A stretch of 64,000 nucleotides of DNA, from positions 211,210 to 275,209 of the forward strand of contig JAKOXL010000024.1 in the NCBI GenBank assembly GCA_029781045.1, read 5' to 3'. The notes under the pieces are model-generated. The model made no database searches, was not told the DNA's origin, and worked only from the letters and a program-made list of their open reading frames with translations. Numbering within the stretch: the first letter of the stretch is position 1; every line of letters starts with the position of its first letter. Below, in pieces: positions 28,232 through 48,848 of this stretch. The translations under genes and the position numbers were made by a program. Source of the DNA: Bacillota bacterium. Its GTDB lineage: Bacteria; Bacillota; UBA994; UBA5500.

Positions 28232-28328
28232 TGCGATTGAAGCCATTTGATCGGCAATGACAAAAATTAAATCTTATGCCGCTCCCAACGTAAGTAGAAC
28301 AGCTATTCCCACAGAGATATGATTGGCA

Positions 28329-28357
28329 TTGGTATCTGGCTGGTTTTGTCGTACAAT
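28329..28357 (+). promoter_or_regulatory. Promoter for miaB
   Basis: TTGGTA (28329-28334), a 17-base spacer and TACAAT (28352-28357). It supports the TTG start of miaB at 28376, because an upstream start at 28319 would precede the promoter. Confidence 0.6.
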
Positions 28358-28375
28358 AAATTGGGGGTGTTTACC

Positions 28376-29704
28376 TTGAGTACAAGATCGAAACGATACT
28401 ATAAGATCATCACCTATGGTTGTCAGATGAATGAGCATGATGCGGAAGTTCTGGCAGGTCAGCTGGAGGAGCTTGACTACTTACCCACGGAAGAGGAAAA
28501 CAGGGCTGATCTGATAATCTTAGTTACCTGCGCTGTTCGTGAGCATGCGGAGCAGCGAGTCTATGGTAAGATTGGCGAGCTTTATCGCTTGAAACAGGCA
28601 AACCCCAATCTGGTGTTGGCTGTTGGCGGCTGCATGTCGCAGCAGAGTGAGGTGGCAAAAAAACTTAAGCAGCGCTTCCCCTACCTGGACATTATCTTTG
28701 GCACCCACAATCTAGCTGACTTCCCCGACCTGTTGCGGGCCGCCGCCGAAAGCCAAGAAACAGTTATGGAGATCTGGGACCGGGAAGGTGAAGTGAGGGA
28801 GCACTTGCCGCGGGTGCGCCAGGATGGCTTAAAGGCCTGGACTACCATTATGTATGGTTGCAACAATTTCTGCACTTACTGCATTGTTCCCTATGTGCGA
28901 GGTAGAGAACGCAGCCGACAACCGGAGAGTATAATCGCTGAGGTAAGAGAGCTGGTGGATAGGGGCTATAAAGAAGTAAGCCTCTTGGGCCAAAACGTGA
29001 ACAGCTATGGCAAAGATTTAGGTCGCGATTATGACTTTGCCGATCTTCTATACGCTGTCAATGAAACGGGTATTGAGCGCATCCGCTTCACGACTTCCCA
29101 TCCGAAGGATATCAGCCCACGGCTGATAGAGGCTATGGCTAAGTGTGAGCACGTGATGGAGCACCTGCACCTGCCAGTGCAGGCCGGTAGCAACCGCATC
29201 CTGCGGGCCATGAACCGCCGTTATACACGGGAACGCTATCTGGAGTTGATTGAGCAAATCCGCAAAGCTGTTCCCAACATCACCCTTACCACGGATGTCA
29301 TCGTTGGTTTCCCCGGAGAAACGGAGGAGGACTTTGCCGACACCTTGAGCTTGGTGGAAACGGTGCGTTATGACGCCGCTTTTACTTTTGCCTATTCACC
29401 CCGCGGCGGGACACCGGCGGCCAAAATGCAGGAGCAAGTGCCGGAAGCGGTGCGTAAAGACCGGCTGCTCCGTCTGATCGAACTGCAAAACCGTATCAGT
29501 TTGGAGCGCAATCAAGAGCTGATCGGCGGTGAGCAGGAGCTGTTGGTGGAGGGGCCTAGCAAGAATGATCCAGATAAACTAACCGGCCGTACCCGCGGCA
29601 ACAAGCTGGTGCATTTTGTGGGGGCAGAAGGACTAACGGGGCAAATCGTGCAGGTGCGTATTACTGATGCGCAAACCTGGAACCTCTTTGGTGAGCTCAT
29701 CTGA
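28376..29704 (+). CDS. miaB: tRNA methylthiotransferase MiaB
   Basis: MiaB is a radical-SAM enzyme that adds the 2-methylthio group to N6-isopentenyl-adenosine at tRNA position 37. The 442-residue product has the N-terminal UPF0004 domain with cluster cysteines (YGCQMNEHD, VTCAVREHA, GGCMSQQ), the radical-SAM motif CNNFCTYCIVPYVRGRERSR, and a C-terminal TRAM domain. TTG at 28376 follows GGGGGTG and a good promoter. The stop is followed at once by a decayed gene. Confidence 0.95.
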   Translation: MSTRSKRYYKIITYGCQMNEHDAEVLAGQLEELDYLPTEEENRADLIILVTCAVREHAEQRVYGKIGELYRLKQANPNLVLAVGGCMSQQSEVAKKLKQRFPYLDIIFGTHNLADFPDLLRAAAESQETVMEIWDREGEVREHLPRVRQDGLKAWTTIMYGCNNFCTYCIVPYVRGRERSRQPESIIAEVRELVDRGYKEVSLLGQNVNSYGKDLGRDYDFADLLYAVNETGIERIRFTTSHPKDISPRLIEAMAKCEHVMEHLHLPVQAGSNRILRAMNRRYTRERYLELIEQIRKAVPNITLTTDVIVGFPGETEEDFADTLSLVETVRYDAAFTFAYSPRGGTPAAKMQEQVPEAVRKDRLLRLIELQNRISLERNQELIGGEQELLVEGPSKNDPDKLTGRTRGNKLVHFVGAEGLTGQIVQVRITDAQTWNLFGELI

Positions 29705-29809
29705 ACCCTTCCCAGCTGGCCGTGCTGAGATTGAGATTACCCAAAGAGATCCAGGCCTTTCCTATAGCAGGAATTGGTTTCCGCTACTCGAATAAATGCA
29801 TACTGTTAG

Positions 29810-30258
29810 TGGTCGGCCTACTGTGCATCACTATGCTGCCACTGCCACGTTTGCTTTTGCTCGGCTACGGGGCCGATGGCCTTTTGGAGGGGCGCCCCTT
29901 CTCAGAGGGGATTTCTCCGGTGCAGGGTGCCACTTGCCATAGCCGTAATTGAGTCTACTTCCAAAATGGACCGTCTGCTGGCAGGTGGCATCTTGCTGAA
30001 TCTCAAACTCATGCCATAGCTCTTGGCCGATGAGGCGGCGATAGGGGAATAATGCAGTTGGTGCCCATCTATTTCCGCCTGGATGGCCATCACATACGAT
30101 TTAACGTGAGGAATGCGGCCACCTGCGGACCCCAAGAGTCTCCTGAACAGTTTCGGGACCTGATTGCTCGTGTGGGCGGCTATGGCGACTATTTTTGCAA
30201 CCTAAGCCGACCATTGCATAATAAGATAACAGCTCGCACTGAGCACCAGCAGGTTTAA
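29810..30258 (+). pseudogene. Glycyl-radical enzyme remnant (C-terminal region, several frameshifts)
   Basis: Joining the three frames gives a continuous glycyl-radical-enzyme C-terminus. VHHYAATATFAFAR is read near 29827. GRPFSEGISPVQGA follows near 29895 in another frame, then AVIESTSKMDRLLAGGILLNLKLMP near 29942 in a third, ended by TAG. Finally 30052-30258 gives YFRLDGHHIRFNV and RDLIARVGGYGDYF, ending ARTEH. RVGGY is the glycyl-radical site. In intact members (PFL-like, dehydratases, lyases) these blocks are one chain of about 800 residues. At least two frameshifts and stops show decay. About 100 bases before 29810 hold nothing I can assign. Confidence 0.85.
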
Positions 30259-30284
30259 CAAATAGGAAATAGAGGTGACAAATT

Positions 30285-31091
30285 ATGCAGAAGAAAGCCG
30301 ATGTAGGTGTATTTGGAGGTTCTGGGTTCTACAGTTTCCTTTCCGACGTGGAAGAGGTACATATTGAAACGCCCTATGGTAGTCCCAGCGATACCTTTAG
30401 GTTGGCTCGTCTAGGCGACAAAGTGGTGGCCTTCTTGCCGCGTCACGGTTCCAAACACACCATTCCGCCCCACAAGATCAACTATCGCGCCAATTTGTGG
30501 GCCATGCACAGCCTGGGTGTGCGTCACATTATAGCCCCCGGTGCAGTAGGCAGCTTGCAGGCCCATATTGCCCCTGGTGAGTTTGTTATCTGCGATCAGT
30601 TTGTTAATCGTACCTGGGGACGGGCCGATACATTCTTTGAAGGTCCGGAAGTGCGGCATGTGAGTGCCGCCGATCCCTATTGCCCTCGTTTGCGGGCTCT
30701 CATTGCCAATGTGGCCGAAGACTTGGGTATCAAGGCTCATCCAAACGGCACCATGGTGGTTATTAATGGGCCTCGTTTCTCTACGAGAGCAGAAAGCCGC
30801 GAGTATAGTGCCAATGGTTGGCATGTAATCGGCATGACTGGGTACCCCGAGGCCATGCTGGCAAGGGAGCTGGAAATCTGTTATGCCAATATTTCACTTG
30901 TTACCGACTACGATGTCGGTTTGGAAGGGCGTTCCGATATAGAGGCGGTCACCCACCAGGCGGTGATGGAAGTCTTTGCCAAGAACGTGGATAACGTCAA
31001 ACGCCTGCTGTTCTCCGTAATTGAACGCTTACCCCTTGACGCAGAGCGCAATTGTGTTTGTGCCACTGCTTTGGCGTCAACGGGAGAATAG
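30285..31091 (+). CDS. mtnP: S-methyl-5'-thioadenosine phosphorylase family
   Basis: Phosphorolyses methylthioadenosine (or a related nucleoside) to adenine and methylthioribose-1-phosphate in methionine/purine salvage. The 268-residue product has GVFGGSGFYSF, LPRHGSKHTIPPHKINYRANLWA, PRFSTRAESR, GMTGYPEAMLARE and VTDYDVG. The TDYD aspartates usually mean preference for 6-aminopurines. However, MTGYPE resembles enzymes active on other purine nucleosides, so specificity is open. The ATG has AGAGGTGAC upstream. It ends just before the valS promoter. Confidence 0.9.
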   Translation: MQKKADVGVFGGSGFYSFLSDVEEVHIETPYGSPSDTFRLARLGDKVVAFLPRHGSKHTIPPHKINYRANLWAMHSLGVRHIIAPGAVGSLQAHIAPGEFVICDQFVNRTWGRADTFFEGPEVRHVSAADPYCPRLRALIANVAEDLGIKAHPNGTMVVINGPRFSTRAESREYSANGWHVIGMTGYPEAMLARELEICYANISLVTDYDVGLEGRSDIEAVTHQAVMEVFAKNVDNVKRLLFSVIERLPLDAERNCVCATALASTGE

Positions 31092-31158: not shown

Positions 31159-31400
31159 AGATTTAGGCGTTGATGCGGAGGAGTAGTACCCTCTTTCGCC
31201 CCAGAGAGGGAAGGTCACCGGCTGCAAGCCTTCCTGGTGGAAATGGTACGAACGTCGCCGCGGAGCTTTGCGGTAAGCCCTTTCAGGTTAAGCCGCACGG
31301 GTTTGCCCGTTAGCGCAAGAGCGAGTGCAGGGTTCTCCTGCAGTAAGGTGGTACCGTGGAAGCGAGCCTTCCGCCCTTATGGGGTGGAAGGCTTTTCTAT
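31159..31400 (+). promoter_or_regulatory. T-box riboswitch controlling valS
   Basis: The T-box core AAGGTGGTACCGTG is at 31345-31358, followed by a terminator stem GCCTTCC/GGAAGGC and TTTTCT (31366-31398). Upstream Stem I has the AGAGAG element and a GGCTGCAAGCC distal loop. The likely specifier codon is GTA (31246-31248), a valine codon in the GGAAATGGTACGAAC context. Uncharged tRNA-Val would favour the antiterminator and valS expression. Confidence 0.92.
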
Positions 31401-48624: not shown

Positions 48625-48848
48625 AAAGAACACGATAACAGCTTTTCTGCTGTGTGCGTGGGTTCGCTCTGTTTTGAACCAACACATTCACATGGGGCGC
48701 CGGATCTGCCGCGGCGTACATGCCCGCATAGTCCGGGACGTATAAAACGGACAGTATGGTGCCCACCCTGCGAGAGCGGGTTTCAAAAACGGAAAGAGCT
48801 CACGGCATGGTGGATCATTTTCCGGCGAGGTAATTACCTCGCCTTTTT
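48625..48848 (+). ncRNA. ssrS: Probable 6S RNA
   Basis: A non-coding transcript of about 224 bases lies between aspS and the next gene, with its own promoter and terminator. It folds by eye into a long rod with an interrupted closing stem: TGC/GCA and CGTG/CACG, GCTCT/AGAGC, TTTTG/CAAAA. A central bubble holds a 3'-side hairpin (CCTGC-GAGA-GCGGG), then an upper stem (TGGG-CGCC/GGTG-CCCA) and an apical stem (GTCCG/CGGAC). That is the 6S RNA plan, mimicking an open promoter to trap sigma-A RNA polymerase. In Bacillus, 6S RNA (bsrA) also lies near aspS and yrvM/rarA. I could not search a covariance model, so the name rests on fold and position. Confidence 0.7.
48824..48848 (+). terminator. Intrinsic terminator of the 6S RNA
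   Basis: Perfect palindrome GGCGAGGTAATTACCTCGCC followed by TTTTT. Confidence 0.9.

Follow-up and report, generated by a model that had tools for sequence, protein, structure and literature searches.

HypD, the trans-4-hydroxy-L-proline dehydratase, is an oxygen-sensitive glycyl-radical enzyme (GRE) described from C. difficile (PDB 6vxc and 6vxe) and represented by the equivalog model NF043068. It converts hydroxyproline to pyrroline-5-carboxylate by dehydration, and its description names H160, D278, S334, D339, F340, C434, E436, Y450, T645 and G765 as essential or substrate-contacting (PMC7077986). The MtnP of Synechococcus elongatus is reported to cleave 5′-deoxyadenosine, a by-product of radical-SAM enzymes (PMC8102628). 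Our word searches of the literature, which can miss items, found no paper on a pseudogene of a glycyl radical enzyme hydroxyproline dehydratase, no mention of UBA5500, and nothing linking deoxyadenosine, methylthioadenosine phosphorylase and glycyl radical.

Here, a locus of a Bacillota bacterium of the UBA5500 lineage is compared with these systems. The window is the whole stretch of DNA that was analysed (64,000 nucleotides). The segment between miaB and mtnP is almost certainly the remnant of a hypD gene, left by a net deletion and subsequent decay of the 3′ fifth. Hydroxyproline dehydration would thereby have been lost, and an old promoter may now drive mtnP. The features are collected in Table 1.

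Table 1. Features of the locus, in window coordinates.
Feature	Position	Strand	Description
miaB (tRNA methylthiotransferase)	28319..29704	+	intact left neighbour; named from its domains, UPF0004, Radical_SAM and TRAM, all over the Pfam cut-off
sigma-H-like promoter block	29769..29794	+	AGGAATT-N11-nnnGAATA; relatives have it conserved 5′ of their activase gene
deletion junction, approximate (net loss ~2.8 kb)	29795..29802	+	from spacing against relatives
hypD pseudogene remnant	29802..30258	+	remains of the last 165 codons in three frames; stop codon 30256-30258
68-aa open frame	30052..30258	+	closes the remnant and contains what was its glycyl-radical loop, RVGGYGDYF; matches PF01228 and NF043068
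mtnP (S-methyl-5′-thioadenosine phosphorylase)	30285..31091	+	intact right neighbour; matches NF005876 and TIGR01694

The comparison draws on a PF01228 (Gly_radical) search of 101 genomes, comprising the window's own genome (G000) and 100 relatives, among which G001 and G002 belong to the same genus and G003 to the same family. A preliminary description of the window had proposed a decayed GRE C-terminus between miaB and mtnP, spread over three frames and carrying the RVGGY site, frameshifts and stops. Profile and translated searches bear this out. The 68-aa open frame matches PF01228 with an E value of 5.2e-8 (33.8 bits against a cut-off of 22.2), and tblastn of the GRE protein of G001 against window positions 29601-30400 gives a match with an E value of 2.8e-36; searches of this stretch were run with composition correction and the low-complexity filter off. 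A block in the third frame, with IAVIESTSKMDRLLAGGILLNLKLMP, was found in the same stretch using the G003 protein (E 2.7e-10). Intact GREs of the relatives align over 29802-30255, distributed across the three frames. The location first proposed, 29810-30258, thus holds, apart from its start: homology begins slightly earlier, with a TV(N/S)GRPTV block at 29802-29825 whose short tblastn match has an E value of 0.24 by itself.

The remnant is directly flanked by its two intact neighbours, and mtnP passes two models (348.1 bits for NF005876, cut-off 306; 294.6 bits for TIGR01694, cut-off 274.85). Relative to the three intact genes, six small deletions are present. Five break the frame (17, 5, 7, 8 and 1 nt, near 29825, 29841, 29872, 29938 and 30044) and one of 3 nt, near 30123, is in frame; the exact places are alignment-dependent. 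An in-frame TAG stop occupies 30017-30019. The radical loop reads RVGGYGDYF in the window versus RVAGYSDYF in the intact relatives.

The same locus is informative in these relatives. Each of the three other genomes returned for the genus and family carries a single intact PF01228 match, at this very place. The gene order in G001, G002 and G003 is miaB, a radical-SAM activase (295-297 aa), the GRE (786 aa) and mtnP. The three intact proteins score 1366.4, 1363.8 and 1379.2 bits, respectively, with NF043068 and pass its cut-off of 1100. C. difficile HypD (6vxc) aligns without gaps to the proteins of G002 (1094 bits) and G001 (1072.5 bits). Numbered from the ungapped 6vxc alignment, all ten residues listed above are kept in nine aligned homologues (G001-G005, G007, G009, G011 and G014); G013 was omitted, its GRE being partly N. 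More widely, PF01228 hits occur in ten of the relatives at class level or closer, and the seven scanned with NCBIfam (G001-G005, G009 and G014) all pass the HypD cut-off. G005 and G007 each have a second PF01228 match.

The fragment itself points in the same direction. Its best model is NF043068, with 69.9 bits (E 1.2e-19) over model positions 718-783, followed by a model with 50.0 bits. That the remnant comes from a different type of GRE (PFL, choline lyase or diol dehydratase) is hardly credible: the fragment alone does match several GRE models, but HypD is the top one, and HypD occupies the locus in all three family relatives. At the level of sequence, the intact orthologues at the locus settle the identity of the lost gene as the trans-4-hydroxy-L-proline dehydratase gene hypD, which improves on the earlier view that the fragment could not set the subfamily. 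The relatives' orthologues are thus like C. difficile HypD in score and residues, and the fragment corresponds to its C-terminus. Unlike HypD, the segment retains no more than frame-broken remains of the last fifth. It lacks the Cys loop (C434 and E436) along with the bulk of the substrate-binding part, and as aligned the 5-nt deletion takes in the T645 codon. In place of a full-length open frame with both Cys loop and Gly loop, the segment is a pseudogene and not a member of the family. A further difference from the described system concerns the neighbourhood, as mtnP follows hypD in G001, G002 and G003.

The adjacent activases are less sharply defined. For all three, the HypD-activase model NF043069 is the best one, with 354.7, 360.1 and 371.6 bits against a cut-off of 425, and the general GRE-activase model TIGR02494 is passed. 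Because the NF043069 scores fall under the cut-off, the assignment of the activase's partner rests on linkage.

The extent of the large deletion follows from spacing. The promoter block is separated from the (T/I)VNGRPTV codons by 2812 bases in G001, 2818 in G002 and 2798 in G003 versus 7 bases in the window, where TVSGRPTV is the next homologous stretch after the block. Therefore the activase gene and 621 of the 786 hypD codons were removed, a net ~2.8 kb relative to the relatives, and the earlier proposal that the 5′ part was deleted as well as shifted was correct. By this comparison, an activase gene once existed here and was lost together with the first four fifths of hypD, in one or more events. 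No activase remnant was found in 29705-29800; with the G002 activase, tblastn against 29601-30400 gave chance-level matches, the best (E 0.08) lying elsewhere, and what is conserved in 29705-29800 is the promoter block.

Loss of coding constraint was assessed by counting sites in 29802-30255 at which one genome alone differs from the agreeing others. Such unique changes at codon positions 1/2/3 number 17/23/14 in the window, 2/0/19 in G001, 2/3/13 in G002 and 11/4/24 in G003. The flanking genes of the window served as controls, with 13/10/42 for miaB and 5/3/21 for codons 1-190 of mtnP. In Fisher tests of positions 1 and 2 against position 3, the remnant differs from G001 and G002 (p 8e-8), from all three relatives (p 2e-7), from its own mtnP (p 6e-5) and from its own miaB (p 4e-5). 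Since first- and second-position changes far exceed those of intact relatives and flanking genes, the remnant has lost constraint. Per site of agreement among the relatives, the window changes amount to 14/34 at third, 17/123 at first and 23/137 at second positions. This third-position excess suggests that constraint was lost part-way along the branch, or that a little would be retained.

The same counts bear on whether assembly or sequencing errors conceal an intact gene. The genome is in 57 contigs, and some read types commonly produce small indels. Against such errors stand the absence of ~2.8 kb in addition to the six small deletions, the 40 first- and second-position changes at sites where the three relatives agree, and the flanking miaB and mtnP, which are open and third-position biased. 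We consider this explanation extremely unlikely.

The 68-aa tail deserves separate attention, as it could be read as a functional spare glycyl-radical domain, retained in the manner of GrcA/YfiD to repair another GRE. It resembles these proteins in being a short C-terminal glycyl-radical domain, with an open ATG frame that includes the radical loop, and per agreeing site its third-position changes (5/14) exceed those at first (7/51) and second (8/61) positions. However, the GrcA models are far under their cut-offs (32.2 bits versus 158 for GrcA3, 22.9 versus 145 for GrcA2), and constraint is lost or nearly so: in 30045-30255 the unique changes are 7/8/5 versus 9/5/28 for the three intact genes combined (p 0.003, a weaker signal than for the whole remnant). 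Moreover, no PFL-type GRE was found in the genome that such a domain would serve. A spare domain is therefore very unlikely, and we retain the reading of the tail as part of the hypD pseudogene.

Searches of the rest of the genome agree with a loss of the activity, as had been proposed. The 68-aa place is the sole PF01228 match in G000 (whole-genome profile search, E up to 0.001), and PF02901 (PFL-like) has no match in this genome (E up to 1). An activating enzyme gene and an intact paralogue had been suggested earlier as things to look for; neither an activase orthologue nor a further PF01228 match was found in the assembly of 57 contigs. Its listed completeness is 100%, and a hypD copy in a missing part is improbable. 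Specifically, G000 yielded no activase orthologue but six weak partial matches, the best with an E value of 3.6e-9 at 31% identity; for the one adjoining nrdD (43% over 37 residues), nrdG is the probable identity. G000 does keep NrdD (anaerobic ribonucleotide reductase), a glycyl-radical enzyme of a different kind, and proC, which stands for the following step, to proline, is present in G000 and in all three relatives.

Absence of the domain is not confined to the window's genome. Of the 14 relatives sharing the class or a lower rank, four (G006, G008, G010 and G012) have no PF01228 match, and the hypD trait looks dispensable or often missing in the class. Three of these four belong to one genus (g5); further HypD losses are possible.

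Just 5′ of the deletion, the sigma-H-like block has survived. Its sequence in the window is AGGAATT-N11-CTC-GAATA (AGGAATT-N11-CTCGAATA), and conservation with the relatives ends with it, where the gap begins. The spacer of 11 nt is shared with G001 and G002, while G003 has a 12-nt variant. The block is similar to the sigma-H consensus, RnAGGAwww-N11/12-RnnGAAt, except at one position, and the R of the −10 element is matched solely in G002. A sigma-H gene scores over the cut-off in three of the four genomes (G000, G002 and G003) and not in G001, a 510-contig assembly. A pattern built from the block occurs once in the window versus 0.13 expected, with 13 of 100 shuffles reaching 1; a strict pattern, devised once the sequences had been viewed, has 5 matches in G000 versus 2 for the reversed control. 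The motif by itself is weak evidence, and the argument is its conserved place. The block has outlived the genes once 3′ of it and now stands upstream of mtnP.

Another predicted mtnP promoter could lie inside the remnant, where a sigma-70 scan of 29650-30330 returned two overlapping 9/12 matches (30194-30222; 0.5 expected). A ribosome-binding-like GAGGTGA precedes mtnP in all four genomes. Other RNA-related elements were seen further along the window: a T-box leader (31161-31381; 93.7 bits, gathering 93) before a long synthetase-like frame 3′ of mtnP, and a 6S RNA (48641-48820, + strand; 89.9 bits, gathering 46.4).

The association with mtnP was also surveyed, using flanks of up to 6.5 kb, many of them shorter, and matching hypD and the activase at E 1e-8. 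The order activase, hypD, mtnP (G001 L023, G002 L022, G003 L024) is absent from the 78 other mtnP loci listed. A general linkage of hypD and mtnP was rejected: among the matches listed (at least 563 relatives), it appears at 2 of 80 mtnP loci, both on contigs of G002 and G003. The family operon of hypD, radical-SAM activase and mtnP might exist because MtnP clears the 5′-deoxyadenosine formed upon activation; the deletion would then have passed the sigma-H-like promoter to mtnP, with both kept for other radical-SAM by-products and MTA. We regard this proposal as tentative and rather doubtful.

Taken together, the ancestral order was miaB, GRE activase, hypD and mtnP, as three relatives still display. 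By comparison with them, a net loss of ~2.8 kb took away the activase gene and all of hypD but its 3′ fifth, which acquired its small deletions and stop and lost most of its coding constraint. Judging from gene content, the cell would no longer be able to dehydrate hydroxyproline to pyrroline-5-carboxylate; it keeps proC and NrdD. The block of the old operon may by now serve mtnP, with transcription running across the dead tail, and this presumed hand-over is the sole mildly novel point. Otherwise, this is ordinary gene loss and a well-supported pseudogene, now identified. The result puts a name to one loss of hydroxyproline use in the genus and illustrates that a fragment can be named from its intact neighbours in relatives. 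Finally, the linkage of hypD and mtnP would be a mild hint that 5′-deoxyadenosine disposal may be tied to glycyl-radical activation.
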